Shown piece by piece: positions 1,161-21,115 of a stretch of DNA of 21,213 bases. The translations under genes were made by a program, and so were the position numbers. Source of the stretch: a virus; the IMG/VR virus record IMGVR_UViG_3300020465_000112, positions 1 to 21,213 of that record; one strand, written 5' to 3'. Positions within the stretch are counted from its first letter, which is position 1. Every line of letters starts with the position of its first letter. The notes under the pieces were generated by a model that was not told the origin of the DNA, did no database searches, and saw nothing but the letters and a program-made list of their open reading frames with translations.

Positions 1161-1197
1161 CAAACCTGTGGAAAACTATTGTACTAAATGTTAATGA

Positions 1198-1221
1198 AGA
1201 TCCTTTAATTAGGGTCTTTTT
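1198..1221 (+). terminator. Intrinsic terminator after the small-gene cluster
   Basis: AGATCC at 1198-1203 pairs with GGGTCT at 1212-1217 (six pairs, one G-U) around an 8-nt loop, and a run of five T follows at 1217-1221. It lies 38 nt after the last small gene and shares the GGGTCTTTTT half with the stronger terminator at 3736-3758. Confidence 0.65.
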
Positions 1222-1269
1222 AGTATCAATTAATACACAAATCATTTAAATAACTATTAAAAATGGTCA

Positions 1270-1277
1270 TATAAATA
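1270..1277 (+). promoter_or_regulatory. Candidate late promoter TATAAATA
   Basis: TATAAATA matches the T4 late promoter core and the NATAAATA form reported for cyanophages. No sizeable gene follows for more than 360 bp; the first downstream ATG of interest is the 21-codon ORF at 1309. The octamer is AT-rich, so a chance match is possible. Confidence 0.35.
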
Positions 1278-1308
1278 GGGTTGCCTTGTTTATATCTTTT
1301 CCACAAGT

Positions 1309-1374
1309 ATGTGTAAAAAGTGTATAAAAAGGGGGAAAAGGTTGTGGAATAAGTTGTTAATAACTGTTGTGTAA
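1309..1374 (+). CDS. possible 21-residue CxxC micro-ORF
   Basis: Begins MCKKCIKRGKR and ends LLITVV: a CxxC pair, a strongly basic stretch and a hydrophobic tail. It has no Shine-Dalgarno, but its ATG lies 31 nt past the TATAAATA octamer, close to the 29-nt spacing at gp25. It overlaps two of the DnaA-box-like sites. At this length chance is a serious alternative. Confidence 0.15.
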   Translation: MCKKCIKRGKRLWNKLLITVV

Positions 1375-1445
1375 TTGTGTTTTTAATTGATAGTTTAAGT
1401 GTTGTAATAAGTGGTGAATTAATGATAGTTTTTGTAGTGATCTAA

Positions 1446-1475
1446 GCGAGCGTAGTATAACACGAGCGAGCGAGG
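1446..1475. repeat. GCGAGCG short repeats
   Basis: GCGAGCG occurs at 1446-1452 and again at 1466-1472, the second inside the longer run GAGCGAGCGAG at 1464-1474. The 30-bp block is a GC-rich island in very AT-rich DNA. Its right edge (CGAGG at 1471-1475) can pair with CCTCG at 1486-1490. Purpose unknown; a protein-binding site is one possibility. Confidence 0.35.
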
Positions 1476-1528
1476 ATTACAAGACCCTCGGTAACATTTT
1501 GTAGCACTAATACCAAACCAGTTCAGTA

Positions 1529-1584: not shown

Positions 1585-1613
1585 TTGACAGATAGTGGGT
1601 TTATTTGTATAAT
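1585..1613 (+). promoter_or_regulatory. Consensus sigma-70 promoter
   Basis: TTGACA at 1585-1590 and TATAAT at 1608-1613 with a 17-bp spacer, a perfect bacterial consensus. It lies 29 bp ahead of the ATG at 1643 and should be read by the unmodified host RNA polymerase, as expected for early phage genes. Confidence 0.8.
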
Positions 1614-2099: not shown

Positions 2100-2172
2100 G
2101 TTAAATGATGCGTATTGGCAGTTATTTGCGCCTTATGTGTTATGCGGCGGCGTTGCGATGCCCGTGGCTTAA
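2098..2172 (+). CDS. possible 24-residue hydrophobic micro-protein
   Basis: MLNDAYWQLFAPYVLC followed by GGVAMPVA. The product would be a short hydrophobic peptide. Its codons are unusually GC-rich at third positions (GCG, TGC, GGC, GTG, CCC), unlike most of the phage genes here. AAGGGG at 2079-2084 is a possible Shine-Dalgarno. It would have to be translated from a transcript started upstream, because the -10 box at 2094-2099 overlaps its start codon. The GC-rich block could instead belong to a structured RNA. Confidence 0.25.
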   Translation: MLNDAYWQLFAPYVLCGGVAMPVA

Positions 2173-2288
2173 AACGGATAGAGACCCTAACCTACAGAGG
2201 TGACAATTCGAGATGTATATATAAAAATCTTCGAAATTTTTTTTGACCTTTTTAGGTTTCTATATAAAAAAATCCCCCCATATTTTTC

Positions 2289-2590: not shown

Positions 2591-3391
2591 ATGGCAAAAG
2601 GATTTACTGTTAAAGCTGCTAGTCCCAAAGCAAAAGCAAAAGACGAATGGGATATAGATGCAATCAAAGCAAGAATGAAAGGTAAAGCAATTGTCTTTTG
2701 CCTACCTGGTAGAGGAGTATCATATACTTACTTAAAGAATTTCGTACAACTATGTTTTGACATGGTTCAGAATCAGATGAGTATTCAGATATCTCAGGAT
2801 TACTCATCAATGGTAAACTTTGCAAGATGTAAGTGTCTTGGAGCAAATGTATTACGTGGTAAAGATCAGATTCCTTGGGACGGGAAATTAAACTACGATT
2901 ATCAATTATGGATTGACTCGGATATTGTCTTTGACACAAACAAATTCTGGCAGTTATGCGATCTTGCATGTCCCGCAGAAGCAGAGAACGAAGATGGTTC
3001 TATAGACGATGACAAGTGCCGTAAGATCACTGCTGGTTGGTATGCTACTGAGGACGGCAAGACAACCTCTGTTGCACATTGGTTAGATGAAGAGGACTTC
3101 CGCAAGAATGGTGGAGTTATGAACCATGAGACTGTGGAATCGATCAGTAAGCGTAAGAAACCTTTCACTGTAGATTACACAGGTTTTGGTTGGGTTATGA
3201 TTAAGCACGGCGTATTTGAACAACTTCCTTATCCTTGGTTTGCTCCAAAGATGCAAGTATTCGAATCAGGTGCAGTTCAAGATATGTGCGGCGAAGACGT
3301 ATCGTTCTGTCTTGACTGTATTGAGGAAGGCATGGATATTTGGTGCGATCCTCGTATTCGTGTAGGGCACGAAAAAACTCGTGTTATCTAA
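2591..3391 (+). CDS. glycosyltransferase-like protein (GT-A type)
   Basis: A 266-residue soluble protein with the layout of a nucleotide-sugar glycosyltransferase: a basic N-terminal leader, a first beta-strand/loop (AIVFCLPGRG, residues 33-42) expected to bind the nucleotide, the metal-binding DxD-type motif in LWIDSDIVF (109-111), a GED motif at 234-236 of the kind that supplies the catalytic base, and a late GHEK (His260) that could be a metal ligand. Similar genes, annotated as glycosyltransferases, occur in marine T4-like phages. The substrate is unknown; candidates are virion proteins, DNA bases or host surface glycans. It has its own promoter and is joined to the next gene by TAATG. 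Seven of about ten Arg codons are CGN, unlike the AGA-dominated structural genes. The assignment rests on motifs. Confidence 0.65.
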   Translation: MAKGFTVKAASPKAKAKDEWDIDAIKARMKGKAIVFCLPGRGVSYTYLKNFVQLCFDMVQNQMSIQISQDYSSMVNFARCKCLGANVLRGKDQIPWDGKLNYDYQLWIDSDIVFDTNKFWQLCDLACPAEAENEDGSIDDDKCRKITAGWYATEDGKTTSVAHWLDEEDFRKNGGVMNHETVESISKRKKPFTVDYTGFGWVMIKHGVFEQLPYPWFAPKMQVFESGAVQDMCGEDVSFCLDCIEEGMDIWCDPRIRVGHEKTRVI

Positions 3392-4088: not shown

Positions 4089-4496
4089 ATGCCTTTAGAG
4101 AGGGTAAATAACGGTTTTAAAGACCTTAGTATGAGTTTTCAGGCAAATCCTTTGTCTAAAGACTTGATTGCGCTGAAAAATACTAACGCAATTGCTCGAT
4201 CAATAAAAAATATAGTATTTACCCTACCTGGAGAAAAATGGTTTAATGAAGATTTTGGTTCTAGGATTACAGCAAGTTTATTTGAGAATATAAATGATGT
4301 TACTGCGAATATTATTGTCGATGAAATTACTTCATCAATCACTAGATATGAACCAAGAGTAGAATTGATAGGTGAAGGTGTAAAAGCATTCCCTGATTAT
4401 GATAATAATACCTTTGATGTCATCATTGTATATACAATTATTGGGACAGATGTTCCTCCACAGCAATTAGAATTCGTTTTAGAATCAAACAGGTAA
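4089..4496 (+). CDS. 25: gp25-like baseplate wedge protein
   Basis: Baseplate wedge subunit of the GPW/gp25 family, which sits at the base of the sheath and helps start sheath polymerisation. At 135 residues it is almost the same length as T4 gp25 (132). Family hallmarks are visible: FTLPGEK (44-50) followed by the conserved FG (56-57), and the EPR motif (YEPRVEL, 87-93), the residues used to join gp25 with gp6 and sheath in contractile systems. No Shine-Dalgarno is seen; the late promoter lies 29 bp upstream. Four bases separate it from gp6, the same partnership as in other contractile injection machines. Confidence 0.9.
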   Translation: MPLERVNNGFKDLSMSFQANPLSKDLIALKNTNAIARSIKNIVFTLPGEKWFNEDFGSRITASLFENINDVTANIIVDEITSSITRYEPRVELIGEGVKAFPDYDNNTFDVIIVYTIIGTDVPPQQLEFVLESNR

Positions 4497-4500
4497 TAAA

Positions 4501-6426
4501 ATGCCACTAGTTAATTTCTCAAATCTGGATTTTGACCAGATAAAGACAACTCTGAAGGATTATCTTCAGACAAATGCAAATTTTACGGATTATGACTTCG
4601 AAGGATCTAATCTTTCGACTGTTATTGACCTGTTGGCATACAATACTTACATAACTTCATACAATGCTAACATGGTTAGTAATGAGGTATTCATCGATAG
4701 TGCAAGTTTAAGGGAAAATATAGTATCTTTAGCAAGAAATATTGGATATTTACCTCGCTCAAGGAAAGCATCACGTTCATCTATCAGTTTTTTCATTAAT
4801 ACAAGTAATATTGTACCCCAACCTTCTGTTATAACCCTTAAAAAAGGTGCTGTAGCTACCACTGCAGGTGCTTTTGGTAATCAATCTTATGTTTTTTCAA
4901 TTTTAGAAGATATTTCTGTCCCAGTTTACAATAATGTTGCTAATTTTACTGATATTCAGATATATGAGGGTACTCTTTTAAATACTAACTTCACTTATAG
5001 CACTCGAAATCCAACTCAGAAGTTTATTTTGCAAAATATTGGTATTGATACTGATTTAATTGCTGTAAATGTTAAAAGTAACGAACAAGCAACGGCAAAA
5101 ACAAAATATTCTGCTCAAAATAGTCTTTTTGATGTTCATGGAGAATCAAAAATCTATTATTTGCAAGAAATAGAATCTGAAAGGTATCAAATCTTTTTTG
5201 GAGACGGTGTTTTTGGAAAACCACTTGAAGAAGGCAATTTTGTTGATATAGATTACATTGTTTCTAACGGTGATACAGGAAATGGCGTTGCTCAGATGAC
5301 TTTTGCGGGAAATTTAATCTATGAAAGGAATGCAATCACCTATAAAGTGACTTCTGGCATCTCTTTGGTAACAACTAATTCATTTTCCACTGGTGGAGAG
5401 AATATTGAGTCTGTTGAGTCGATTAGAAAGTTTGCTCCAAGGATATATGCATCACAAAATAGAGCAGTTTCTGCTGCAGACTACGAATCATTGATTCCAG
5501 CGAAAATTTATCCCGAAACTGAGTCAATTTCCGTTTTTGGAGGTGAAGAATTAAATCCTCCTCAATATGGAAAGGTGTTTATTAGCATAAAACCAAGAAC
5601 TGGTGATTTTTTACCCAATCTTATTAAAGAAAACATCAGATTGAAGTTAAAGAAGTATGCTGTAGCAGGAATTGTTCCAGAAATCTTAGATCTTAAGTAT
5701 CTTTATCTTGAAATTACCTCAAAAATCTATTATAACTCAAATCTTGCCCAAACTGGTGCTTCTGTAACTTCTATAGTTGAAAATAATGCAAATAAGTACG
5801 CTGAATCAACTGAGTTAAATAGATATGGAGCGAGATTTAAGTATAGTAAGTTTTTAGGTATAGTTGATCAAAGTCATGATGCGATTACTTCAAATATTAC
5901 AACAGTAACTATGAGAAGGGACTTGAGAGTTGTATTAAATAAGATTTCTGAATATTCTATTGGATTTGGTAATCAATTCCATATTAAGAGTATGAGTGGA
6001 TTTAATATTAAGTCTACAGGATTTACTATTGATGGTATTACTCAACCTGTATATATTTCAGACATTCCTAATAGAACTAGAGTAACTGGATCTCTTTTCT
6101 TATTTACTGTACCTAGTGTAAATTCAGTAAGTCCTACAATTGTAAGGAGAAATGTTGGTACTATTAATTACCAATCTGGAATAATTACATTAAACCCAAT
6201 TACTATCAGATCTGGAAAAATAAAAGATGGTCAATCTATTATTGAGTTATCAGTACCTCCTAGATCAAATGATGTTATTGGATTACAGGATTTGTATTTG
6301 CAACTAGATATAGGAGGTAGTATATTTGATCCAATCGTGGATGAAATATCTTCTGGACTTGATCCTTCAGGATCTAATTATATTGTTAGCTCAAGTTACA
6401 TGAACGGAGCATTAGTAAGAGTATAA
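4501..6426 (+). CDS. 6: gp6-like baseplate wedge protein
   Basis: Homologue of T4 gp6 (baseplate J family), the wedge subunit that dimerises to form the continuous ring of the inner baseplate. Length 641 residues against 660 in T4. The N-terminal part carries the conserved block DYDFEGSN (about 27-34) ... DLLAYNTYI, then NMVSNEVFIDSASLRE and GYLPRSRKA. Further along are FFGDGVFGK (232-240) and RAVSAADYESL (321-331), characteristic of baseplate J proteins. It starts four bases after gp25 and ends one base before the giant gene, so all three are probably translated from one late transcript. Arg codons are almost all AGA/AGG. Confidence 0.92.
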   Translation: MPLVNFSNLDFDQIKTTLKDYLQTNANFTDYDFEGSNLSTVIDLLAYNTYITSYNANMVSNEVFIDSASLRENIVSLARNIGYLPRSRKASRSSISFFINTSNIVPQPSVITLKKGAVATTAGAFGNQSYVFSILEDISVPVYNNVANFTDIQIYEGTLLNTNFTYSTRNPTQKFILQNIGIDTDLIAVNVKSNEQATAKTKYSAQNSLFDVHGESKIYYLQEIESERYQIFFGDGVFGKPLEEGNFVDIDYIVSNGDTGNGVAQMTFAGNLIYERNAITYKVTSGISLVTTNSFSTGGENIESVESIRKFAPRIYASQNRAVSAADYESLIPAKIYPETESISVFGGEELNPPQYGKVFISIKPRTGDFLPNLIKENIRLKLKKYAVAGIVPEILDLKYLYLEITSKIYYNSNLAQTGASVTSIVENNANKYAESTELNRYGARFKYSKFLGIVDQSHDAITSNITTVTMRRDLRVVLNKISEYSIGFGNQFHIKSMSGFNIKSTGFTIDGITQPVYISDIPNRTRVTGSLFLFTVPSVNSVSPTIVRRNVGTINYQSGIITLNPITIRSGKIKDGQSIIELSVPPRSNDVIGLQDLYLQLDIGGSIFDPIVDEISSGLDPSGSNYIVSSSYMNGALVRV

Positions 6427-6427
6427 A

Positions 6428-9400
6428 ATGGCAGAAAAAAGAGTTCACTTTCAGAACATAGTTGAGAATCAACTTCCAACATATGTACAGACAGAATTTC
6501 CTTTAGTTTCGGATTTTCTTAAAAGTTACTATGTTTCGCAAGAATTTCAGGGTGCTCCTGTTGACTTGATTCAAAATATTGATGATTATACAAAAATTGA
6601 TAATTTAACTAATTTAACAGAACATGTTGGATTGGGTTCTGATATTAATTTTGCTGCTAATACAATTTCTGTAGATTTATCTAATTATCCTGCAGGAACT
6701 GAAGGTTTTCCTGATGCTTATGGTCTATTAAAGATTGATGATGAGATAATTACATATAAATCAAAGGATTCTTCTAATTTTAAAGATTGTGTTAGAGGAT
6801 TTAGTGGAATTTCTTCATATAGAGCAGCAGATCGTCCAGATCAACTAGTTTTTGACTCTACAATTGCTGATAAGCATGAAAAAGGAACTAAGATAGAAAA
6901 TTTAAGCAATCTTTTTCTTAAAGATTTTTTAGTAAAGACAAAACATCAACTTTTACCAGGATTTGAAGAAAGAAAATTACATAAAGATATAAATCATAAT
7001 ATTTTTATTAAAAATGCGACAGATTTTTATAGAAGTAAGGGAACGGACGGTGCTTTTGAGATTTTATTTAAAGCTTTATATAATGAACCTGTAGAAATTA
7101 TAAGACCAAGAGAATTTCTCTTTACTCCATCTAATGCACATTATTTAATCACAAATGATTTTTGTGTTGAGGGTGTTGAAGGAAATCCAATGGAATTGGA
7201 AAATGCAACATTATTCCAAGATAAGTATGGTGATCCAACATTCATTGAGAAGGCATATGCACCTATTACTAATGTAGAGGTTATTAGTCCTGGTATTACT
7301 GGAATAGCAAAGACATATTATAAAATTAGTTTAGATGCGGGATATAATAGAGATTCTAGAGTACAGGGAGCAACTTATGGTGAATTTGTTGTTCATCCAA
7401 AAACTAGATTAATTGGTGGTGTCTCTGTAGGTGCTACTATATTTGATGTAGATTCAACTGTTGGATTTCCATATTCAGGTGAATTATCTGTAGTTTATAA
7501 TGATACTACATCAGGAATTGTTTCTTATTCCTCAAAGAATTTAAATCAATTTTTTGATTGCACAAATGTAACTGGTATTATTGAAGATTCTGAAGACGTT
7601 GGAATAAACACTTATTGCTATGCTGCTTCTAATACTGGTGATGGAAGCACTGTTAAAGTAAGAGTAACTTCTGTATTGAATGATTTTGCTTTTGGTGCAA
7701 GTAATAGATATTACTCTCATAATGATGTTGCAGAAATTAAAACTTTAGGTGTTAAAGATAATACTTTTAAGGGTCGTGCTTGGTTTTATAACGTTGCATC
7801 TCAGTATAATGTTAAAAGTATAGAATTGATTGATTCTTCAGATAAAACCTATCTTGTTACTTTAGAAACGGTACATTCATTTAGAGTGGGTGATAATGTA
7901 GCACTTACTGGTACTGATAAGATAGAAAAACCAATTTCTATCATAAGTGAGATTAAATCAACAAAATCCTTTATTGTTAAGGGTCAAGGAGATCTTACTA
8001 CTACTGATAGTTACACTGTTAATAGAAAACTCCTAAAATCAATATCAAACACCTATCCAGAGTCTTCTAGATTTATTACAAACGTACAAAATACTTATAA
8101 GCAAGGAAATGACTTTTTAGTTGCATCTCCTTCTATACCAACATATAATTCACAACCACTTAACGTTTCTGATCAAACTATTCATCTTAATGGGCAATTT
8201 ACTGCAGGTGGTGCATGGCAAATTACAACCACTAAAGATCATGGTTTTTATACAGGAGATGCTGTTTATTATACTCCAGAAAAGGTAGAAGAGACTTATG
8301 TTGACTCTTTTGGTGATACTAAGAAAAGAGTTGTAACTTATACTTATTTGTGGGATGAAGGTTTATACTTTATAAAGAGATTAGATGCCCAAACAATAAG
8401 ACTTGCTAAGAGTTTAACAGATATTTCGAATGGTAATTTTATTGAGCTTGCAAATACTGTAACTGTTAAAGATAATAAAATTGAACCTTATAAGTTTAAC
8501 AAAAAAACATTAGAATCGCAAAGAATTTTAAGATCTATTCATCAACCAGTAACAGATTCGACTATAACCAAAACTAGACCTGGTCGTACTGGAATTTTAA
8601 TTAATGGTGTTGAGGTACAAAACTATAAAGGAAAGCAGGTTGTATATTCTGGAAAAATAGAAGAACTTGAAGTATTAGCACCAGGAGATGATTATGATGT
8701 TATGAATCCTCCTCTTTTAAGTATTGGTGATAATACGGGAATTGGAGCAACAGGAAATGTTGATATAGTTGGAAATTTAAAGAGTATTCAAGTTAAAGAT
8801 ACTGGATTTGATTATAGACAAACTCCTACTATAACAATTACTGGTGGTAATGGTGATGGAGCAACTGCTCGTCCAAATATGAAGTTGGTTGATCATAATC
8901 CAACTTTTAATGCACAAAGTGTGAATGATATTGGTATTGGTGCTACTCAATCAATAATTGGGTTTACAACTTTCCATAAATTTAGAAATAATGAACCAGT
9001 ATATTATAGAACTGGAGGGCAAGATGGATTAGTTGGTCTTTCTACTAATTCATTATATTATGTCCATGTTGTTGATGAATTTTTAATTAAATTAATGCCT
9101 ACACAAGGAGATGCTATTGTAGGAATTAATACTATGGTTATAACTGATTATGGAGTAGGAAGGCAAAGTTTAGAAACAGTACATCAGAAACTTGTTTTAG
9201 ATTCTGTCAATATTGTCAATTCAGGAAGTGGGTATGCATATAAAAAGAGAACTACAACAACAGCAGGAATTGATACTTCTGCAAATCTTATTACCATTAA
9301 CAATCATGGATATAAATCTGGTGAAATTGTAAATTATACGACAGAAAATCCATATGTTGATAATCGTCTTTCTGGAGTTGGAACATTTTCTCAAGTAATT

Positions 9401-12400
9401 GCAGGTCTTAGTAGTAGTACTGATTATTATGTAACTGTAATTGATGATAATAACTTTAAATTATCTCAAGTAGGTATAGCAACTATTGATAAAACAATTT
9501 ATTATGATACTCAACAATTTATTGATTTAGAATCCGTTGGTTCTGGATATCATTGCTTTAATTATCCTAGTATTAATGTTTCTATATCAGGATTAGTTGG
9601 AATATCAACTGTAGAACGTGTTGGTGTATCTACCGTTGATTTTCAGGCTAAACTCCAACCAATCTTTAGAGGTTCTGTTCAGGGAGTACATATGAAGACA
9701 AATGGTATTGGATATGGATCCTCTACCATAATGGATAATGTTAGACAACCTTCTTTAGGACTTTCTTTTGGAGATAGATGCCAATTAGCATGTGAAGTTA
9801 TTGATGGTGCTCTTACTGAGGTTATAGTAATTAATAGAGGTAATAATTATATTTCTCCCCCTGATATTCTAGTACAAGATCGTGCAGGTTCTGGTCGTGG
9901 AGCAGTAGTTGTACCAATTATTAGTGAAGGTCAAGTTATAGAAGTTAAAGTTTTAAGTGGTGGTACTGAATATAGTCAGCAAAATACAGTTGCTTTTTCT
10001 GTATCACCTGGAGGAGGTTGTGAGCTTAAAGCGTCTCTTCAAAACTGGCGTGTAAATTTAGTAGGAAAGCACTTTAATCAGTTTACCTTAGATGATGGGT
10101 TTATGACTGAGGGATGGGAAGGTAGAGGACTTCAGTATACTCATTTATATGCTCCTAGAGTACTTAGAGAATCAATATATGCAACTGATCAAGATGGTAA
10201 TAAATTATATGGTCAAAAGGATTTAACCAAGAAGAATGGGTCTGAAGTATCCTCTACGGGTCATTCTCCTATCATTGGATGGGCATATGATGGAAACCCA
10301 ATTTATGGTCCATATGGATATGCGGATAGAAGAGGTGGTGTAGTTACTCAGATGAAATCTGGGTATAAATTGAATCTCAAGAAAGATAGACCTTCTACAG
10401 TATTTTTCCCTGAAGGATTCTTTATTGAGGATTATACTTATACACCAGTAAGTGATGATTCTGTTCTTGATGAAAATAATGGAAGATTTTGTATTACTCC
10501 AGAATATCCAGATGGAACTTATGCTTATTTTGCAACAGTGGATACTGCTGCAGCATCTGCTGGTCCTTTCTTAGAATATAGAGAACCAAAATTTCCATAT
10601 TTGATTGGTGATGCTTATCATTCAATACCTAATAAATTTAATCTTGATAAAGATTCAAGTCAAGATGCTTTTGATTTTAGTGAAGGTAATTGGTTTAGAA
10701 ATACAGAACCTTATAATTTAATCGAAGAAAATCTTACATATAAGTATGCTTATATACCAAATAAATTATCTCAAAAAATTGATATTCTTTCTACTAGTAG
10801 AGGTGTAGTTGATTATGTTGGTGTTAGTAGTGGTGGAAGAAATTATAGAGTTAATGATGAAGTAGTATTTGATAATGCTGATACTGCAGCAGTTAGACAG
10901 GGTTCAAGACTCACAAATGTTGTTGGTGTATTAGCTTTAGAAATGGATCCTAATGCAGGAGCAAAAGCTAGAGTTGCAACGCTTGAGGGTGCTGTTATTG
11001 ATAATGTAAGTGTTGCAAAAAGTAGTATTAGTGGTGTTGAAGTTTATCCCGCAAATACAACTGATGGTAGATATATTCTTTGGGCAGAGAATCCTCATAA
11101 CTTTGATGTTAAAGATACAGTTACACTTACTGGATTTTCTACTACATCTTCTTTAATTGAAGGATCTTATGAGGTAGGAATTCCTACTAGTCACTTTAGA
11201 TTAGTTGGTATAGGAACTAGCACTGTTGGAGTAGGATCTACTGGAGCAACTGGAATAGTTACTCATTTTAGAATAAGTGGAGATCTTTCATATCCTACTA
11301 TTAGAGAAAATGATATTCTTGGAATTGGTACTGAAAGAATTAAAGTATTAAATGTAGATCCACAAACATCTAGAATTAGAGTAATGAGAGCAGTTGATGG
11401 TACAGTAGGTATCTCTCATACAACAAGTACTCCCATTTATGATGATCCAAGGAAATTAATTATTAATGCTGGATTTAAATCAACAACAGAAGGTAAAGTA
11501 AATAAGCAACTTTATTTTGATCCAACATATCACGTTGGAGTAGGAACTAGTGTCGGAGTTGGTATAGGATCAACTGTTTATTTTGATGATACTAAAGCGG
11601 GACTTGGTATAACATACGCCTTTATCCCAACTAGATCATTATACATTGAGAATCATGGATATGAACAGGATGATCAATTAACATATTCTCCTGGTGATGG
11701 TGATGGTATAGTTGCTGCTGCTACAACAACTGAAATACAAGGATCTGTCTATTTTGATGGATATGATGATTATATGACTAGTACTGAAAGTAGTTACTCT
11801 ATAAATGGAAGTACTAATTTTACTGTAGAAGCATGGGTATTTCCACAATGGGCTAATTTAAGTCAAATATTTAATTTATCTGTTGGTAGTGCTTCTAATA
11901 TAGGATTGACTTTGGGATCTACTAATCCTGGTGATATAAGACTTTTAGTAGAAGCAGATAATGGCGGTGACTTACTTGATATCACAACTGGAGCAAGTCT
12001 TGTTCCTGTAGGACAATGGACTCACGTTGCGGTAAGTTTATCTGGTACTGCTGGAAAGATCTTTATTAATGGTGTAGTAGAGGCAAGTGGTACTCTAAGT
12101 GGTACAAGAACACATACAGGAACTGTAGTTCATATAGGTGCTCATAAGACTGCTGCATCGCAGGATAGGTATTTTAGAGGAAAACTTTCTAATCTTAGAT
12201 ATACAGTTGGAGAGGCAGTTTACACATCTGCATTTACACCACCAGTATTACCAACAACCACTAGTAGTCAGGCAGCAACTGTTGCTAAGGTAAAACTCTT
12301 ATGTTGTAAGTCTCAGGTATCTGCTGCTTCTACTGTAGTTGGTGCTGGTATTAGTGTATTTGGTGATACTATAGCAACTGGTGCTAGTCCTGCATTCGAA

Positions 12401-15400
12401 ATATGGGCAGGTACTGGTACTACATTAACTAATGGTGAGACCGTTTATGCTAATAGAATATCTAAAGATTTACTTGGAATTTCTACATGCAAACTCTTTA
12501 TTAATGAAGCAGGGAATTGGGTTGGTATTGCAAGTACACAAAAACATTCTTCTACTCTATTCTTTACTGGAATAGGAACAGGAACTTATCATAGTTTTAA
12601 TACTAATTTTACTCCTATTACTTGTGAAGTTAGAAGAAATCTGGTAACGGTATCTACTGCAGGTACACATGGATTAGTAATAGATGATAATGTAATTGTT
12701 GAGGTTAATCCTGCTAATACTGGAATTGTTACTGTAAAATATAATGATTATAATAGAAAACTTACTTTAGATGCCAAATCCTTTACTGCATCTGGAATAA
12801 CTTCTTCTACTAATACTATTACCATAACTGATCATGGATTTGCTCTAGGTCAGAAAATTATTCATACTGCAACCACTCCTACATATGGATTAACTGATAA
12901 TGGAGTTTACTATACAGTCCCAATTGATAATAACAACTTTAAATTATGTAATACTTATTATAATGCCACTAGATTTAAGCCTATTGTTGTTGGAATAGGA
13001 ACAAGTGCTTCTGCAGGTACTATTAATCCAGTAAATCCACCAATAAAGGTATATAAAGATTCTGTTCTTTCTTTTGATCTTTCAGATTCATCTTTAGCGT
13101 ATAGTAAAGGATCAATATCTTATCCTGCATTTGATTTCCAATTATATGCGGATAGTGCTTGTGTAAAAGAATGGAATAAAAATCCTAGTACTGAAGAATT
13201 TCAAGTTAAGAAATCAGGAAGAGTTGGTATAGATGCTGATGCTAAATTAGAATTGACGGTTGATAAGTATTTACCAGAAACTCTTTATTATAGATTGGTT
13301 CCTGTATTCGAAAATGATCTTCCACCAGAGAAAGAAGAAATTGATGTAGATAAGGATATTCTTAATAATCATGAAATTAATAGATTTGATAGTGTTTATG
13401 ATGGACAATATGGTGTTCGTGTTGGTGTTGGTTCTACAAATACATTTACATATACTGTAGCAGATAATCCAGAAAAAGTATCCTATGCTGGTACTACTTC
13501 TGTTTTATCTTATACAACAAATGCATCAGGTGCAATGGGCGCAGTAAATGCATTTGAGGTTACTGATGGTGGAGGTAATTATTACTCTATTCCTGGTGTA
13601 AGTACTGTTACATCTGCAGATGGTAAGTATTGTATAGCAGAAGCATCTAGTCAAAGTATTGGTAAAATTACTAAGTCTGAAATTAGAAATATGGGATTCA
13701 ATTTCCCCTCTGACCCAACACTAGAACCTAGTGTTGCATTACCTCTAATAGTATCAATAAAAGAATTTGCTCGTGTTGAGAGTGTTGGAATTGCATCTGC
13801 AGGAAGAGGATATTCTAGTCCACCAAATTTACGTATTTTTGATGGTAAAACAGAAAAGTACCATGATGAATTTAGAGCTAAGTATAATCTTAAAGAACAA
13901 AAAGTAACTATTTTAGAAAATGTTACTGGTATTCATAATGTTACTCCTTATATTATTCCTACAGAAAATACTAATGGTGTAGGAATTTCTACAGTTGGAT
14001 TTAATAGTACAACTAAAGATGTAACTCTTACTTTATCTGTAGGATTTACTACTTCAGGAACTTTCCCCTTTGCATTAGGTGATAAAATTATAGTTGAGAA
14101 TGTAAGTGTAGGATTAGGTTCTACTGGAACTGGATACAATTCAGCAGATTATAATTTTAAACTATTTACTGTAAATGCAGTTGATGAAAATATTGGAGGA
14201 ATTGGAACTATTGCATATAGTCTTTTAGAACAATTAGATGATGGAGAAACTCCTGGAGTTTATGATGGACCTAGTTCTGCAGGAAGAGTTGTTCCTCAGA
14301 AACATTTCCCTATCTTTAATATTTCGGTTAAACCTGCTGATTATTTCCAAGGAGAAGAAGTAACATCAACTAATCAATTTGGAGAACCAATAAGTGGTAT
14401 GGTTGATAGATGGGATAGAAAAGTTGGATTATTGAAGATATCCACTATTGATAAATTCCAAAAAGATAAGGTTATTCTTGGAAGTGCATCTCATGTTCAT
14501 GGACGTGCTAATAGCATAGAAACTTATCCCGCAGATTTAAATTATGGTGCTTTTAGTAAGAGATTCCACGGTTGGGAAACAGATTCTGGAGTATTAAATT
14601 ATTCTTTACAGAAAATAGAAGATAGTCTTTATTATCAAAATTTCTCATATTCCGTAAAATCTAAAATTGATTATGATACTTGGAAGAATCCAGTTAGTAC
14701 TTTAAATCATACTTTAGGGTTTAGAAAATTCTCTGATCTTCAAATAGAATCTCAAGTTGATGAAGGGGAATTAACTGTAGGATTATCTACCGAAGTAACC
14801 TCTGTTAATGCAGTTCATGATTTATTTTCTTCTGTTAGTATGCATTCTGTATCAGACTTTGATTTAGTTAAAGAAAATTCTAGAAATGGTTCTGCTGGAC
14901 TTATATCAGATGAAGTAATATTTGAAAATAGAATTCTTAGTGATTATGCAGAATCTCAAAGTAATAGGGTTCTTACTATAGATGATATGAGTGGTACATT
15001 TAATAGTAATCCTAGAGCAACAGTTTATAGTATAGTTGATACATTTACATTATCTGAACATAGAGCAAAGAAATATTTTGCATTAATTAAAGACCAAAGA
15101 TATACGGGACAAAGACAATTAATGATAGTTGATCTTATGCATGATGGTACTTTTGGTTATATTAACCAATATGCAAAGATTGATAATGTTTATGATTTAG
15201 GTACATTTGATTTCCAAATTTCTGGTACAGAAGGTCAAGTATTATTCTACCCAACAAGATTTAAGAAGAATGATTATTATGTTACCACTTTAGCATATAA
15301 TTTAGATGATAATTATCTTGGTATAGGTACCACAAGTCTTGGGTGTGTTTATATTGATTCTACTAGTACAAAAGTTTCAGCTGCAACAACACAAACTACA

Positions 15401-18400
15401 GTTGTAGGTTTTGGTACAACATATCGTTCTGCTAAGATTTTAGTTAGTGTAACACCCGATGCTGGTGGAGATGGAGAGACTATTAATAGTGAAGATTGGG
15501 AATTTGAAGAAATTAATTTACTTCATGACGGGAGTGAGGTGGATATTTTAGAATATGGTGAAATGGTTACTAATTCAGCAAATGTTGCTCAAGGATTTGG
15601 AACATATTCTGCTTATATTCAAAGTGGTACCGTTAAACTTGATTTCCATCCAAATGCTGGAATTGGAACCACTTGTATAGTTAATACTATGCAAGTAGCA
15701 ATTGGAAATACTACTACTGGAATTGGAACTGTTAGTATGAAACATGCTCTTCTTGAAGCAAGAGCAAATACAATTGCTTCTTCTGGATCTCCTATTCCTG
15801 TTGGTATCGCAAGTTTCCCAACTCAATTTAACCCTGAGACTGATGGTTATGATGGTGCTTATGTTTTAGTCCAAGCTACTGATACTACAAATAATGAACA
15901 TCAATTATCAGAATTCTTTGTTTTAGAAGATTATAGTGAAGAAAGTGGAATAGGAACTGCCTATGATACTGAATGGGCAAATATAGAAACTCTTTCAGGA
16001 TTGGGTACTATTGGAAGTAGATTACAAAAGAATCAAGGTGGTGTTTCTTACTGTGAAATTACATTTACACCGAATGCAAATATTGGATGTCAAGTTAATA
16101 CTTATATGAATGCATTGAAGATTCAGGATGATGATAAAGATACTATTGAGTTTAATAACGGTACTATTGAAACAAATAATGGTACTTACAGAGGTACTCT
16201 TAATGATATTAAGAGAGATTTCCCATTAACTCATAATAATGAGGAAATCTTTAATAGAGACTTTGTTGGTAATGCTTCTACTGTTGTAAGTGTAGGATCA
16301 AGTACTATAACCCTACCAAATCACTTCTTTGTTAGTGGTGAGAAGGTTGAGTACATTCATGCTGGTATAGGTGCTACACAGGCAATTGGAATCGCTTCTA
16401 CATCCTTTGTAGGGATTGGTACGACTACTAAGGTACCTGGTGAGGTATATGTAATTAAGATTAATGAGGATACTATTAAGTTAGCATCTAGTGCTGAAAA
16501 TGCTCTTAAAGTAATACCAGAAGCATTAAACATTACTAGTGTTGGTATTGGTTCATCTCATAGGTTTATATCAACTAATCAGAACTCTAAAGTTGTTTTA
16601 GCTCTTGATAATGTTATTCAGTCACCAGTTGTTGCAACAGCAGTTACTTCTCATCTTTCTAATATTGTATTTACTACTGATGATATTTTCTACTTCAGTG
16701 GAATTACTTCATTCTTTGCTGAAGATTTAGTTAGACTTGGTGCTGGTACTACTGGTGAAATTGTACAAATTACAGAAATTGGTGTTGGTGTATCTAATGG
16801 TATTAGAGTTGATAGAGGATGGATGGGAACACCTCTTGCAGGATATTCTACTGATACTGTTGTAACTAAGGTTGATGGTGCTTACAATATTGTTCAGAAC
16901 ACTTTAAACTTTGTTGATGCTCCAGTTGGAAATACTCCAATGAGCAGTGATACTAATTATCCAGATGATAGAGATTGGACTGGTATTTCTACTGGATATA
17001 GTTTCCAAGGTAGGATGTTTATGCGTTCTGGAATTACTGGTGGAACGAATGAAGCATATTATTCAAATTACATCATTGATAATATTTCTAATGAATTTAA
17101 TGGTATTAGAAATAACTTTGATTTAAAAGTAAATGGATCAAATTTTGCAGGAATATCTACAGGTGGTTTAATTCTAATTAACAGTGTAGTTCAGGGAAGA
17201 GGAGAAACCTATGATTATACAGTTGAGGATTCTTCTGGAATTACTACTATTTCCTTTGTAGGAAATGCAAGGACAATTAAGAATGATATAGGTATATCAA
17301 CATTCCCAGTTGGTGGTATTGTAGTTTCTGTAGGTTCTACTGAAGGATTTGGATATCAACCATTGATTTCTGCTGGTGCAACTGCAGTCGTTTCTTCTGG
17401 TGGAACAATTGCATCTATTAGTATTGGTAATAGTGGTTCTGGATATAGAACAGGAATTCAAACAGTAAATGTTGGAATTAGTTCACAAGGTTTAGATGCA
17501 ACTTACTTTACTGGTATTGCTACTGCAATAATCAATAATGGTTATATTACAGGTATTAGTTCAGTTAGTGGAATTGGTACATTGGCATTATACAGTCAAT
17601 CAAGTCCTCCTCTTATAAAGATTGAGGCACCACTTTCTTACTCAAATATGCCATTGATCTATAGTTCTGAATCAGTATCTGGAGTAGGATCAACTGCAAC
17701 TATTGATGTTGTTGTTGGGCAAGGATCTAGTGTAATTTCATATACACTTAAGAATCTTGGTTATGGATATGGTAATGGTGAAATTCTAACTGTACCTGTT
17801 GGTGGATATACTGGTATTCCAACAACTGCTGATTTTGGATCTAAAGAGTTCCAACTTACAATTGATAAAGTATTTAATGATGCAATGACTGCATGGAACT
17901 TTGGTGAATTAGATATGATTGATAAGATAGAAGATTTATTTGATAATAGTACTACTACATTCCAATTAAAGAAAAATGGTGCTGTTCTTTCAATATTATC
18001 TGCTAAAGGATCTAAGATTAATGTACAAGATTGTCTCCTTATATTTGTAAATGATATACTTCAAATTCCAGGTAAAGCATATGAGTTTAATGGAGGAAGT
18101 TTATTAAGATTTACAGAAGCACCTAAAGAAGGTGATACTTGTAAAATTATGTTCTATAAAGGAACTGCTACTGTTGATGTTAATGATGTAGAAGTACTTG
18201 AGACAGTTAAACCAGGTGACGATATTATTATTGGATGGGATCCTGGTATTGAGGGTCAATTTAGTTATATGCAAGAAGAAGAAAGAGAAACGGCAAGAGT
18301 TGATTCTACGGATACTATTACTACAACTCCATACTTTGGTCCTGGTAATACTCAAGATGAAGCCCTTTTAAGACCTGTTGTTTGGGTTCGTCAAACTGAA

Positions 18401-19528
18401 GATAGAATTATTAATGATAAAGAAGTTGGTAAGGATAGAGAAATTTATGAACCAACCATTTACCCTGCTGCTTATGTTATTAAGACCGTTGGAATTGGAT
18501 CAACTGAAATTTATGTAGATAATATTAGACCATTCTTTGATCCTGATAATGAAAGTGGTATTAGTCTTAATTTCCAAGATAAGATTGCTTTCATTGGTCA
18601 AGAGAATAAGACAGGTGCTGCTGCAACTGCTGTAGTTTCTGGTCTTGGAACTATATCTTCTGTTGTAATATCTGATGGTGGTGCTGGATATAGTACTGCA
18701 ACGGTAAGTATTGGTAATACTATGATGGGTGGTGTTGGTATTGGTACGACCACAACTGCTTTTGCATCAGTTACAATTGGTGCTGCTGGAACTATAACTG
18801 GTATTGCTATTACAAATCCTGGTTATGGATATACAACTGATAGTCCTCCACAAGTTCTTATTTCTCCTCCTGCGGTAGTTGATGAAGTTAATTCAATAAA
18901 CAGTTATGAAGGTGATAATGGTGTAATTGTTGGATTTGGAACTACTACTAGCAATCAAATTATGTTTGATCTTCATATTCCATATGATTCTGAATTGAGA
19001 AATACCACTCGTGTTGCAACCGCAGTAAGTCTTAGTTCTTTGGCTAGTGGTGATTACTTTGTTGTTAATAACTCTAATGTTGGTGTTGCAACCACATCTA
19101 TGATTTCCTTAGATGGTTCCAGTACACTTGGAATAGCAACTCACTTTGTTGATACTGTTTATAAAGTAACTGCTGCTGTCAGCATATCAACATCAGTTTC
19201 TGGTGTGTCTACATATGTTAGAAGGGTTACAGTAGGAGTTGGATCAACTCCATCTGGATGGTATGGAACTGTTGGGGTTAGAACTTCTGATTTCTATGGT
19301 GATTATAGTTGGGGATTAATTACTTTACCTTCGAGAGCTGGTATTAATTCATTCCAAGCATACAATCAAGGTGGAATTGGAGTTGCTCAAAGTAGTTATG
19401 TATCTGGTAATTATGCAGGAGTAGGTCGTCCAGTTGGAATCGTTACTATTGCCCCTGCTACTGGTATACACACTTCTGCTATAGTTCAAAGGTTTAAACC
19501 TCTGAAATATAAAAACTATACGTCATAA
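6428..19528 (+). CDS. giant gp7-equivalent baseplate/appendage protein
   Basis: A 4366-residue structural protein in the gp7 position, against 1032 residues for T4 gp7. Residues about 199-224 (DFYRSKGTD...LFKALYNEPVEI) match, from memory, the C-terminal wedge segment of T4 gp7 (DFYSTKGIE...LFKVLYNEEVEI). Visible order: wedge-binding head (1-300); repeated HxF-x-x-GD modules (from about 480 to 2150, again at about 3298); repeated G-x-GY modules (14 seen); a YHYH-like domain (about 1275-1375); a LamG/concanavalin-like domain (about 1772-1942) followed by a KLLCC motif; a conserved QKIEDSLYYQNFSYS block (about 2727); three tandem beta-domains (about 2870-3235); a NDILQIPG/FYKGTATVDV module (about 3820-4035); and a Gly/Ser/Thr-rich tail. 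Tandem GIGT/VGVGST strings suggest trimeric beta-structure. It starts one base after gp6. Probable role: wedge component extended into a host-facing appendage. Confidence 0.85.
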   Translation: MAEKRVHFQNIVENQLPTYVQTEFPLVSDFLKSYYVSQEFQGAPVDLIQNIDDYTKIDNLTNLTEHVGLGSDINFAANTISVDLSNYPAGTEGFPDAYGLLKIDDEIITYKSKDSSNFKDCVRGFSGISSYRAADRPDQLVFDSTIADKHEKGTKIENLSNLFLKDFLVKTKHQLLPGFEERKLHKDINHNIFIKNATDFYRSKGTDGAFEILFKALYNEPVEIIRPREFLFTPSNAHYLITNDFCVEGVEGNPMELENATLFQDKYGDPTFIEKAYAPITNVEVISPGITGIAKTYYKISLDAGYNRDSRVQGATYGEFVVHPKTRLIGGVSVGATIFDVDSTVGFPYSGELSVVYNDTTSGIVSYSSKNLNQFFDCTNVTGIIEDSEDVGINTYCYAASNTGDGSTVKVRVTSVLNDFAFGASNRYYSHNDVAEIKTLGVKDNTFKGRAWFYNVASQYNVKSIELIDSSDKTYLVTLETVHSFRVGDNVALTGTDKIEKPISIISEIKSTKSFIVKGQGDLTTTDSYTVNRKLLKSISNTYPESSRFITNVQNTYKQGNDFLVASPSIPTYNSQPLNVSDQTIHLNGQFTAGGAWQITTTKDHGFYTGDAVYYTPEKVEETYVDSFGDTKKRVVTYTYLWDEGLYFIKRLDAQTIRLAKSLTDISNGNFIELANTVTVKDNKIEPYKFNKKTLESQRILRSIHQPVTDSTITKTRPGRTGILINGVEVQNYKGKQVVYSGKIEELEVLAPGDDYDVMNPPLLSIGDNTGIGATGNVDIVGNLKSIQVKDTGFDYRQTPTITITGGNGDGATARPNMKLVDHNPTFNAQSVNDIGIGATQSIIGFTTFHKFRNNEPVYYRTGGQDGLVGLSTNSLYYVHVVDEFLIKLMPTQGDAIVGINTMVITDYGVGRQSLETVHQKLVLDSVNIVNSGSGYAYKKRTTTTAGIDTSANLITINNHGYKSGEIVNYTTENPYVDNRLSGVGTFSQVIAGLSSSTDYYVTVIDDNNFKLSQVGIATIDKTIYYDTQQFIDLESVGSGYHCFNYPSINVSISGLVGISTVERVGVSTVDFQAKLQPIFRGSVQGVHMKTNGIGYGSSTIMDNVRQPSLGLSFGDRCQLACEVIDGALTEVIVINRGNNYISPPDILVQDRAGSGRGAVVVPIISEGQVIEVKVLSGGTEYSQQNTVAFSVSPGGGCELKASLQNWRVNLVGKHFNQFTLDDGFMTEGWEGRGLQYTHLYAPRVLRESIYATDQDGNKLYGQKDLTKKNGSEVSSTGHSPIIGWAYDGNPIYGPYGYADRRGGVVTQMKSGYKLNLKKDRPSTVFFPEGFFIEDYTYTPVSDDSVLDENNGRFCITPEYPDGTYAYFATVDTAAASAGPFLEYREPKFPYLIGDAYHSIPNKFNLDKDSSQDAFDFSEGNWFRNTEPYNLIEENLTYKYAYIPNKLSQKIDILSTSRGVVDYVGVSSGGRNYRVNDEVVFDNADTAAVRQGSRLTNVVGVLALEMDPNAGAKARVATLEGAVIDNVSVAKSSISGVEVYPANTTDGRYILWAENPHNFDVKDTVTLTGFSTTSSLIEGSYEVGIPTSHFRLVGIGTSTVGVGSTGATGIVTHFRISGDLSYPTIRENDILGIGTERIKVLNVDPQTSRIRVMRAVDGTVGISHTTSTPIYDDPRKLIINAGFKSTTEGKVNKQLYFDPTYHVGVGTSVGVGIGSTVYFDDTKAGLGITYAFIPTRSLYIENHGYEQDDQLTYSPGDGDGIVAAATTTEIQGSVYFDGYDDYMTSTESSYSINGSTNFTVEAWVFPQWANLSQIFNLSVGSASNIGLTLGSTNPGDIRLLVEADNGGDLLDITTGASLVPVGQWTHVAVSLSGTAGKIFINGVVEASGTLSGTRTHTGTVVHIGAHKTAASQDRYFRGKLSNLRYTVGEAVYTSAFTPPVLPTTTSSQAATVAKVKLLCCKSQVSAASTVVGAGISVFGDTIATGASPAFEIWAGTGTTLTNGETVYANRISKDLLGISTCKLFINEAGNWVGIASTQKHSSTLFFTGIGTGTYHSFNTNFTPITCEVRRNLVTVSTAGTHGLVIDDNVIVEVNPANTGIVTVKYNDYNRKLTLDAKSFTASGITSSTNTITITDHGFALGQKIIHTATTPTYGLTDNGVYYTVPIDNNNFKLCNTYYNATRFKPIVVGIGTSASAGTINPVNPPIKVYKDSVLSFDLSDSSLAYSKGSISYPAFDFQLYADSACVKEWNKNPSTEEFQVKKSGRVGIDADAKLELTVDKYLPETLYYRLVPVFENDLPPEKEEIDVDKDILNNHEINRFDSVYDGQYGVRVGVGSTNTFTYTVADNPEKVSYAGTTSVLSYTTNASGAMGAVNAFEVTDGGGNYYSIPGVSTVTSADGKYCIAEASSQSIGKITKSEIRNMGFNFPSDPTLEPSVALPLIVSIKEFARVESVGIASAGRGYSSPPNLRIFDGKTEKYHDEFRAKYNLKEQKVTILENVTGIHNVTPYIIPTENTNGVGISTVGFNSTTKDVTLTLSVGFTTSGTFPFALGDKIIVENVSVGLGSTGTGYNSADYNFKLFTVNAVDENIGGIGTIAYSLLEQLDDGETPGVYDGPSSAGRVVPQKHFPIFNISVKPADYFQGEEVTSTNQFGEPISGMVDRWDRKVGLLKISTIDKFQKDKVILGSASHVHGRANSIETYPADLNYGAFSKRFHGWETDSGVLNYSLQKIEDSLYYQNFSYSVKSKIDYDTWKNPVSTLNHTLGFRKFSDLQIESQVDEGELTVGLSTEVTSVNAVHDLFSSVSMHSVSDFDLVKENSRNGSAGLISDEVIFENRILSDYAESQSNRVLTIDDMSGTFNSNPRATVYSIVDTFTLSEHRAKKYFALIKDQRYTGQRQLMIVDLMHDGTFGYINQYAKIDNVYDLGTFDFQISGTEGQVLFYPTRFKKNDYYVTTLAYNLDDNYLGIGTTSLGCVYIDSTSTKVSAATTQTTVVGFGTTYRSAKILVSVTPDAGGDGETINSEDWEFEEINLLHDGSEVDILEYGEMVTNSANVAQGFGTYSAYIQSGTVKLDFHPNAGIGTTCIVNTMQVAIGNTTTGIGTVSMKHALLEARANTIASSGSPIPVGIASFPTQFNPETDGYDGAYVLVQATDTTNNEHQLSEFFVLEDYSEESGIGTAYDTEWANIETLSGLGTIGSRLQKNQGGVSYCEITFTPNANIGCQVNTYMNALKIQDDDKDTIEFNNGTIETNNGTYRGTLNDIKRDFPLTHNNEEIFNRDFVGNASTVVSVGSSTITLPNHFFVSGEKVEYIHAGIGATQAIGIASTSFVGIGTTTKVPGEVYVIKINEDTIKLASSAENALKVIPEALNITSVGIGSSHRFISTNQNSKVVLALDNVIQSPVVATAVTSHLSNIVFTTDDIFYFSGITSFFAEDLVRLGAGTTGEIVQITEIGVGVSNGIRVDRGWMGTPLAGYSTDTVVTKVDGAYNIVQNTLNFVDAPVGNTPMSSDTNYPDDRDWTGISTGYSFQGRMFMRSGITGGTNEAYYSNYIIDNISNEFNGIRNNFDLKVNGSNFAGISTGGLILINSVVQGRGETYDYTVEDSSGITTISFVGNARTIKNDIGISTFPVGGIVVSVGSTEGFGYQPLISAGATAVVSSGGTIASISIGNSGSGYRTGIQTVNVGISSQGLDATYFTGIATAIINNGYITGISSVSGIGTLALYSQSSPPLIKIEAPLSYSNMPLIYSSESVSGVGSTATIDVVVGQGSSVISYTLKNLGYGYGNGEILTVPVGGYTGIPTTADFGSKEFQLTIDKVFNDAMTAWNFGELDMIDKIEDLFDNSTTTFQLKKNGAVLSILSAKGSKINVQDCLLIFVNDILQIPGKAYEFNGGSLLRFTEAPKEGDTCKIMFYKGTATVDVNDVEVLETVKPGDDIIIGWDPGIEGQFSYMQEEERETARVDSTDTITTTPYFGPGNTQDEALLRPVVWVRQTEDRIINDKEVGKDREIYEPTIYPAAYVIKTVGIGSTEIYVDNIRPFFDPDNESGISLNFQDKIAFIGQENKTGAAATAVVSGLGTISSVVISDGGAGYSTATVSIGNTMMGGVGIGTTTTAFASVTIGAAGTITGIAITNPGYGYTTDSPPQVLISPPAVVDEVNSINSYEGDNGVIVGFGTTTSNQIMFDLHIPYDSELRNTTRVATAVSLSSLASGDYFVVNNSNVGVATTSMISLDGSSTLGIATHFVDTVYKVTAAVSISTSVSGVSTYVRRVTVGVGSTPSGWYGTVGVRTSDFYGDYSWGLITLPSRAGINSFQAYNQGGIGVAQSSYVSGNYAGVGRPVGIVTIAPATGIHTSAIVQRFKPLKYKNYTS

Positions 19529-19564: not shown

Positions 19565-21115
19565 ATGTCTGCAATTATAACTGACCAAATTAGAATATTG
19601 AATGCGTCAAATTTTGTTGCTGGTGTAGCTACTGCAACTAAATCGTATTATTCATTTGTAGGACTTCCAAACCCTACAGACATTCAATCTGATTGGGATA
19701 CAAGTCCACCATCTCCTAAAGATAATTTCTCGGAGCAGAATGACTATTGGGATACTATGATTGCATTAAAGAAAATTAATGCAGACGATGTTAGACAGGT
19801 TGTTCCAAAGAGAGAATGGTCATCAGGAACAACATATGATATGTATCGTGGAGATATTAGTAGATCAAATCCTGCAAAGGTTTCAGGTGCTACTAACTTA
19901 TATTCTGCAACATATTTTGTTCTTAATGAAGATTATAGGGTTTATGAATGTCTTCAGAATGGTACAAATCCTGATAATCCAAATGGCAGACCTTCATTAG
20001 ATCAACCGTTATTTACTGATTTAGAACCAAGAGCTGCTGGAAGTAGTGGTGATGGATATATTTGGAAATATCTTTTTACTATTAAACCTACTGATATTAT
20101 TAAATTCCAATCTACTGATTTTATTCCTGTTCCTGTAGAATGGAATACTAGCGCACTTAATGCTCCTGTAAGAAATAATGCAGTAGATGGATCTATTAAA
20201 ATTGTAACTGTTACTGATCGTGGTATTGGTATTGGAACCGCAAATAGAACTTATACAAAGGTTCCTATTAGGGGTGATGGTGATGGTGCTGAATGTACTA
20301 TAATTGTTGATGCAGACCAACAAGTCGATACAGTAACTGTTTCTAGTCAAGGTTCTGGATATACATACGGTAATGTGGACTTAATTGCTGGTGGAGTTCC
20401 TACAGGAACTAGTATACCAAAATTTGATGTGATTGTACCTCCTCAAGGAGGACATGGTTCTGATATCTATCAGGAATTGGGTGCCATGAATGTTATGATG
20501 TATTCTAGAATTGAAAATGATGTAGAAAATCCCGATTTTATAACAGGGAACCAAATTGCTAGAGTTGGTATTTGTGAGAATCCATTATCAACTGGACAAG
20601 CACTTTTAACTGTTGATAAAGCAAGTGTTTTAGGTGCTATTAGATTAACGGGAACTGGTTATAGTACAGCAACATTCACTGCTGATTCTTATTTTGAGCA
20701 AACTATTGCTACTGGTAGTACTGCAGTTGGAAGAGTTGTAAATTATGATCCTGTAACTGGTGTATTAAAGTATTGGCGAGATAGAACTCTTGCAGGATTT
20801 AATACTGTTGGAACTGCACAAACTAACCCAACATGGGGATTTCATTTAAATGGTTTTACTAATGCCCCAACTGGAGATGGTAATTTAACTATTGTACCAT
20901 CAACTGGGTCTAATTTGGCAATTGCTACCGCATTTTCTGGTATCTCTACATCAATAAATAGTAAAACATATTACCTTGGTCAAGATTTTACCAACGGTTT
21001 ATCTGGTCCTGAAGTTAAAAAGTATTCAGGAAGTATAATATATGTTGATAATAGACCTGCAATTATCAGGTCTGTGAACCAAAAAGAAGACATTAAAGTC
21101 GTTTTGCAATTTTAA
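19565..21115 (+). CDS. 8: gp8-like baseplate wedge protein
   Basis: Homologue of T4 gp8, the wedge protein that binds gp7 and gp10. Recognisable blocks, compared from memory with T4: VVPKREW (79-85; T4 VIPRRDW), GDGYIWKYLFTI (162-173; T4 GDGYVWEYLFEI), and the C-terminal SIIYVDNRPAII (490-501; T4 EMIYMENRPPII) with a matching last beta strand. At 516 residues it is about 180 longer than T4 gp8 (334). The extra length lies between the second block and the end, and contains two copies of the G-x-GY repeat found in the giant protein (QGSGYTYG near 260, TGTGYSTA near 363). No Shine-Dalgarno; expression is probably from the late promoter 23 bp upstream. Confidence 0.9.
   Translation: MSAIITDQIRILNASNFVAGVATATKSYYSFVGLPNPTDIQSDWDTSPPSPKDNFSEQNDYWDTMIALKKINADDVRQVVPKREWSSGTTYDMYRGDISRSNPAKVSGATNLYSATYFVLNEDYRVYECLQNGTNPDNPNGRPSLDQPLFTDLEPRAAGSSGDGYIWKYLFTIKPTDIIKFQSTDFIPVPVEWNTSALNAPVRNNAVDGSIKIVTVTDRGIGIGTANRTYTKVPIRGDGDGAECTIIVDADQQVDTVTVSSQGSGYTYGNVDLIAGGVPTGTSIPKFDVIVPPQGGHGSDIYQELGAMNVMMYSRIENDVENPDFITGNQIARVGICENPLSTGQALLTVDKASVLGAIRLTGTGYSTATFTADSYFEQTIATGSTAVGRVVNYDPVTGVLKYWRDRTLAGFNTVGTAQTNPTWGFHLNGFTNAPTGDGNLTIVPSTGSNLAIATAFSGISTSINSKTYYLGQDFTNGLSGPEVKKYSGSIIYVDNRPAIIRSVNQKEDIKVVLQF

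Follow-up and report, generated by a model that had tools for sequence, protein, structure and literature searches.

Conserved DnaA boxes of the cyanobacterial type cluster ahead of baseplate gene 25 in some T4-like cyanophages

The intergenic gap and its features

The window, by which we mean the whole 21,213-base virus record that was analyzed, represents part of the genome of a T4-like cyanophage (Kyanoviridae), and its closest annotated relatives belong to the same family. The gap under study (positions 1161-1642) begins just after a small upstream ORF (975-1160) and lies where small, early-type ORFs give way to baseplate genes. To its right lies a gene of the PHROG-1574 family (2591-3391), which has a weak match to glycosyltransferases and served as the anchor gene for our comparison of loci. 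The genes for gp25 (at 4089) and gp6 (at 4501) are located farther downstream. The position of gp7 is occupied by a single ORF of 4366 amino acids (6428-19528) between gp6 and a gp8-like gene; the annotation at this place in relatives is baseplate wedge initiator (gp7). A further baseplate wedge protein (at 19565) comes after it.

Four sites in the gap resemble the DnaA box of cyanobacteria. Box 1 (1167-1175, minus strand) and box 2 (1297-1305, plus strand) are exact copies of TTTTCCACA, and they are the only exact copies in the 21 kb window. Box 3 (TTTTACACA, 1310-1318) and box 4 (TATTCCACA, 1343-1351), both on the minus strand, each carry one mismatch. Boxes 2 and 3 converge across 4 bp to give a dyad of 22 bp (TTTTCCACA-AGTA-TGTGTAAAA), a spacing class that is common among relatives, and the start of box 2 is separated from that of box 4 by 46 bp, which is near the next step of the spacing series detailed below. 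The original prediction had listed these two exact and two one-mismatch sites; all four were confirmed, and the evidence for them is stronger than was first seen, with the reservation that box 3 is degenerate and weak as a full site. It had also described flanking copies of GTTATTAAC (1153-1161) and its reverse complement, GTTAATAAC (1356-1364). This part failed. The left copy coincides in part with the end of the ORF at 975-1160, stop codon included, and three relatives (L009, L013, and L018) have a changed right copy or none; the pair was therefore rejected as part of the element.

The number of one-mismatch motifs in the window as a whole is ordinary (12 found versus 9.4 expected), i.e., there is no window-wide enrichment. 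The best 200-bp cluster score, however, is 6 and falls at the boxes, whereas shuffled sequences reached 4 at most; the score of 6 was matched by none of 300 shuffles of the whole window and by none of 2000 shuffles of the gap. Because the window-wide count is unexceptional and the shuffles never reach 6, the significance rests on the clustering of the sites. The cluster of cyanobacterial DnaA boxes in this gap is real.

The least stable 100-bp duplex of the window (1177-1276) is found between boxes 1 and 2 and is a candidate unwinding segment. Its instability is at the 100th percentile of the window; the counterpart in S-SM2 is at the 99.8th percentile genome-wide, and five others are at the 94th-99th. 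As intergenic DNA is generally AT-rich and the segment was selected as the weakest close to the boxes, we regard the weak duplex as mild support only. An intrinsic terminator-like hairpin on the plus strand (1199-1221; GATCCT-TTAATT-AGGGTC, then TTTTT) closes the operon of small upstream ORFs, and its stem varies in sequence while retaining its pairing in four relatives (L018, L013, L009, and L008). On the same strand, TATAAATA (1270-1277) matches NATAAATA, the late-promoter motif of T4 and S-PM2 (PMC2984593). At this locus, the motif is retained in near relatives and absent from S-SM2 and S-PM2; its function is uncertain.

A leftward sigma-70-type promoter with an extended -10 element (TTGTAA-17-TATACT; 1454-1482, minus strand) is directed across the DnaA boxes. 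The promoter element aligns in 36 sequences, including those of S-SM2, S-SCSM1, Bellamy, and MITS9220M01, and many of the aligned elements have TTGACA-17/18-TATAAT-like hexamers on the minus strand. The longer conserved stretch at 1434-1497 (GTGATCTAAGCGAGC...TATAACAC...TGTCAA) looks like a leftward sigma-70 promoter whose transcript start is conserved. It is also present in phages without DnaA boxes, and the window has no leftward gene for this promoter to serve. A rightward consensus sigma-70 promoter (TTGACA-17-TATAAT; 1585-1613, plus strand) recurs in relatives, and further rightward consensus promoters are located at 2070-2099 and 2539 (both plus strand). A conserved non-coding element (2120-2255, plus strand) lies about 0.8 kb to the right of the boxes, flanked by the promoter at 2070-2099 and by AT-rich A-tracts. 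Its 11-bp core, CCTAACCTACA (2186-2196), is invariant in 22 diverse aligned cyanophage sequences, and in most genomes the element has a single location, upstream of gene 25. The candidacy of 2106-2252 as a structured small RNA was rejected, given no Rfam match, a folding z-score of -0.58, and no consensus fold.

Location, conservation, and phasing of the boxes

By means of the anchor gene, we collected 80 homologous IMG/VR loci along with annotated phages, and 51 loci with non-redundant upstream DNA were kept. The 94.5 kb upstream of the anchor gene contain 82 copies of TTTTCCACA, distributed over 31 of the 51 loci; the 111 kb downstream contain 1. For the reversed motif in the same loci, the respective counts are 6 and 3. 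Separately, we observed in the window (1161-1450) and homologous loci an 8-mer (AAGTGTTA/TAACACTT) that is strongly over-represented upstream of the anchor gene, with 85 copies in 41 of the 51 loci (9.6 expected), and that GTGTTAATAAC is present in some box spacers.

Fourteen complete or near-complete cyanophage genomes, assembled from pieces (Bellamy without its last 5 kb), were scanned for clusters, defined as at least two exact copies of TTTTCCACA within 60 bp. Seven clusters were found in six genomes: one each in S-SM2, P-TIM68, Syn9, S-PM2, and S-SM1, and two in DSL-LC03, where up to seven boxes occupy one intergenic gap. The Syn9 cluster is at about 52.57 kb and that of S-PM2 at about 19.24 kb. 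All seven precede gene 25 by 2.1-7.7 kb; none occur elsewhere in the 14 genomes. When the 1259 other permutations of the motif's letters (1260 in total) were treated in the same way, none clustered there in more than one genome. Twelve more records, seven of them overlapping the 14, agree with this pattern. Thus, where the sampled Kyanoviridae have clusters, they have them upstream of baseplate gene 25 only. No such cluster exists in the other eight genomes (MITS9220M01, Bellamy, S-SCSM1, P-SSM4, P-HM1, S-B05, S-CAM9, and P-SSM2), although the gap in S-SCSM1 contains one exact and one near box; because of these eight, the boxes cannot be a universal requirement in the Kyanoviridae. In S-PM2, a DnaA-box triplet (19177-19264; positions 7178-7265 of locus L344) overlaps an annotated tRNA-Asn (19177-19249) and the start of a tRNA-Leu (19252-19333).

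The gap was aligned with that of six relatives (L003, L005, L008, L009, L013, and L018). Boxes 1, 2, and 4 are 100% identical in all six, versus 66% identity for the remainder of the gap, and box 3 is 85% conserved. In the lineage of the window, therefore, the boxes are conserved beyond their surroundings, box 3 less so than the others. According to the original prediction, equal density of the motif elsewhere or a lack of conservation in relatives would have refuted it; neither applies, as the motif is concentrated upstream of the anchor gene and gene 25 and three of the four boxes are invariant in these relatives.

The spacing of the boxes is also constrained. A scan of IMG/VR for convergent pairs of the form TTTTCCACA-N(4-30)-TGTGGAAAA returned at least 120 stretches. 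In 64 of 92 of these, Kyanoviridae genomes are matched by at least two ORFs, and 51 have a conserved element of this locus; about 28 (L460, L465, L467, L468, L476, and others) have fewer than two such ORFs. A complete scan for a permuted control pair, TTTCTCACA...TGTGAGAAA, found 37 stretches versus the at least 120 for the DnaA pair. Many of the 37 are copies of a few sequences, and 9 have two or more Kyanoviridae-matching ORFs.

Sixty-five stretches classed as cyanophage were reduced to 62 independent contexts for the analysis of phasing. Their convergent spacers are 4-5 bp (17 contexts), 12-16 bp (32), or 25-27 bp (13), with no others. The circular resultant is 0.90 at a period of about 11 bp, and not one of 20,000 uniform random draws was as strong. 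At the anchored loci, tandem pairs are 20-22 or 31-33 bp apart, and divergent pairs are mostly 63-64 or 74-75 bp apart. In other viruses, the pairs displayed no such phasing. Facing boxes thus sit at helically phased distances. Spacer length is kept and spacer sequence is not, as expected if selection favors a protein that binds along a single face of the helix. We caution that independence among related sequences is incomplete and that coverage of IMG/VR was partial.

The probable binder and the possible roles of the array

The 9-mer TTTTCCACA matches the DnaA box published for cyanobacteria (PMC4674748) at every position. Among picocyanobacteria, the 38.5 kb of DNA upstream of dnaN contain 106 copies of TTCCACA, versus 3 downstream. 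Further, a search of 19 phage records plus three contigs with PF08299 detected no DnaA domain IV, whereas ten control genomes were positive. The exact box match, the related host boxes upstream of dnaN, and the lack of a DnaA domain in the phages searched make host DnaA the likeliest binder. We consider such binding likely, but it is inferred from sequence and there are no binding data. The DnaA-box-like identity put forward in the original prediction is strongly supported: given the published identity of the box, the host boxes upstream of dnaN, the shared location, the phasing, and the conservation, these are very probably cyanobacterial DnaA-box sites forming a functional cluster, with DnaA binding again an inference.

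The same prediction had suggested an origin, a DnaA sink, or a DnaA-controlled early/late switch, and sequence does not settle this choice. We favor a role in initiation without excluding the other two. Specifically, we propose that the array is an assembly site for host DnaA and, most plausibly, part of the phage replication origin; DnaA binding and origin activity are both inferred, and the proposal may as easily prove wrong as right. That initiating phage replication is the main role of the array is a judgment in which our confidence falls just short of even, there being no binding, coverage, or transcript data. In the envisioned mechanism, host DnaA would bind the boxes after infection and oligomerize across the phased array; the adjacent weak duplex would then open, aided by transcription from the neighboring promoters; and the phage's own T4-type replisome would load at the opened duplex. 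The sites, their conservation, locus specificity, and phasing, the weak duplex, and the promoter sequences are shown; binding, opening, and loading are inferred.

In favor of the origin reading are the weak duplex beside the boxes and the conserved leftward promoter that crosses them. Against it, T4-like cyanophages carry T4-type replisome genes (PMC2984593), and a review of T4 gives R-loop starts and leaves DnaA unmentioned (PMC3016281). The scarcity of hosts with exact 9-mers upstream of dnaN also weighs against an origin that depends on DnaA: exact TTWTCCACA is present in just 16 of 79 picocyanobacterial dnaN-upstream regions. On the supporting side, Syn9 is predicted to have one theta origin, the only such prediction noted in a review that leaves its position unstated (PMC2984593). 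Cumulative GC skew, the calculation of which had been proposed with the original prediction, is uninformative: its rise is monotonic in each of the four genomes examined, without an origin signal, and it was dropped as a mark of the origin.

Another possibility is that the array is a sink or modulator of DnaA. Multiplying phage arrays would titrate host DnaA or alter its nucleotide state and so stop host re-initiation, and they would not start phage replication; such a model works like E. coli datA or DARS. Several boxes of the high-affinity type per genome, multiplied by genome copies, would suit this role, a patchy presence is what one would expect of a helpful but dispensable trait, and phased pairs fit a structured DnaA complex. 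Nevertheless, the array always lies at a single position, with conserved promoters and a weak duplex next to it, none of which a sink needs, and a sink works only once replication is already under way. We deem this model unlikely. Equally improbable, in our estimation, is a DnaA-controlled transcription switch at the border of early-type ORFs and baseplate genes, in which DnaA on the boxes would repress or activate leftward transcription from the promoter at 1482-1454, rightward transcription from that at 1585-1613, or the late-promoter-like TATAAATA. In its favor, the boxes are within 130 bp of the conserved leftward promoter and adjoin TATAAATA. However, MITS9220M01 and Bellamy keep the leftward promoter element yet have no boxes, the number of boxes and their distance from the promoters vary widely, and NATAAATA is not retained in S-SM2 or S-PM2.

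The boxes could instead be bound by an unrecognized phage protein that shares the specificity of DnaA. There are no binding data to rule this out, and a protein of another fold would escape the PF08299 search. But the boxes are identical to the host DnaA box, no DnaA domain was found in the phages searched, and the variable numbers, orientations, and helical-turn spacings suit DnaA, which binds as a monomer, better than a repressor with a fixed operator; we consider this explanation very unlikely. Finally, the cluster could be an artifact of chance or composition in AT-rich intergenic DNA. The absence of window-wide enrichment of the one-mismatch motif is in keeping with this idea, but the shuffles, the permutation control, the conservation, and the phasing contradict it and all but exclude it.

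The initiation reading, which we continue to prefer, can be extended to a bolder one: a large group of lytic T4-type cyanophages would start their own replication with host DnaA, at phased arrays that lie next to two conserved features, a leftward promoter and a DNA element, and lineages without boxes would have lost or replaced their dependence on DnaA. This is slightly more doubtful than the initiation role itself, and we incline somewhat against it. T4-type phages are thought to start replication without DnaA, and our literature search, which was partial in coverage, found nothing linking T4-like cyanophages, DnaA boxes, and a replication origin. How replication starts in marine T4-like cyanophages is an open question, and the array provides a precise, conserved locus at which to address it in the cultured phages Syn9, S-PM2, S-SM1, S-SM2, P-TIM68, and DSL-LC03. 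Its patchy presence (6 of 14 genomes; 31 of 51 loci) offers a natural comparison between phages with and without the array. If host DnaA does bind the array, T4-type phages would be directly tied to the replication cycle of their hosts.

Relation to known systems

T4 itself has an origin near gene 25, oriF or ori(uvsY), which lies between uvsY and gene 25 (PMC3016281; annotation of NC_000866). Like the cyanophage locus, it combines a promoter with a weak duplex near gene 25 of a T4-type phage; unlike the cyanophage array, it uses a MotA-dependent promoter and an R-loop. Cyanophages are without motA (PMC2984593), and sigma-70-type promoters are present at the locus described here. The oriF region of T4 has no DnaA-box cluster and one 9-mer in 10 kb. 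In the 14 cyanophage genomes, homologs of T4 UvsW, and of UvsY where detected, are 35-72 kb from gene 25. Because the UvsW homologs are 36-72 kb from gene 25, the cyanophage gap is not syntenic with T4 oriF. The idea that a helicase upstream of the gap is T4 UvsW, and hence that the gap is the oriF locus, was refuted, as this helicase is not an ortholog of UvsW.

Some extrachromosomal replicons, both phages and plasmids, recruit host DnaA through boxes in their origins; P1 oriR is one case. Origins of this type need a Rep-type initiator or the host replisome, whereas the cyanophages considered here have a T4-type replisome. The datA and DARS loci of E. coli are short, chromosomal, non-coding stretches in which a few DnaA boxes keep a defined orientation and spacing; to our knowledge, there is no viral example of either.

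The cyanobacterial oriC, located next to dnaN in Synechococcus elongatus PCC 7942, Anabaena PCC 7120, and Cyanothece ATCC 51142 (PMC4674748), has the same 9-mer, TTTTCCACA, as the phage array, likewise in several copies on both strands of AT-rich non-coding DNA. The phage array differs in residing in the genome of a lytic phage, away from any dnaN or dnaA, in the strict helical classes of its convergent pairs, and in having no experimental data on origin activity or binding. By analogy, the cyanophage array may resemble a bacterial DnaA-box array in the way that it works.
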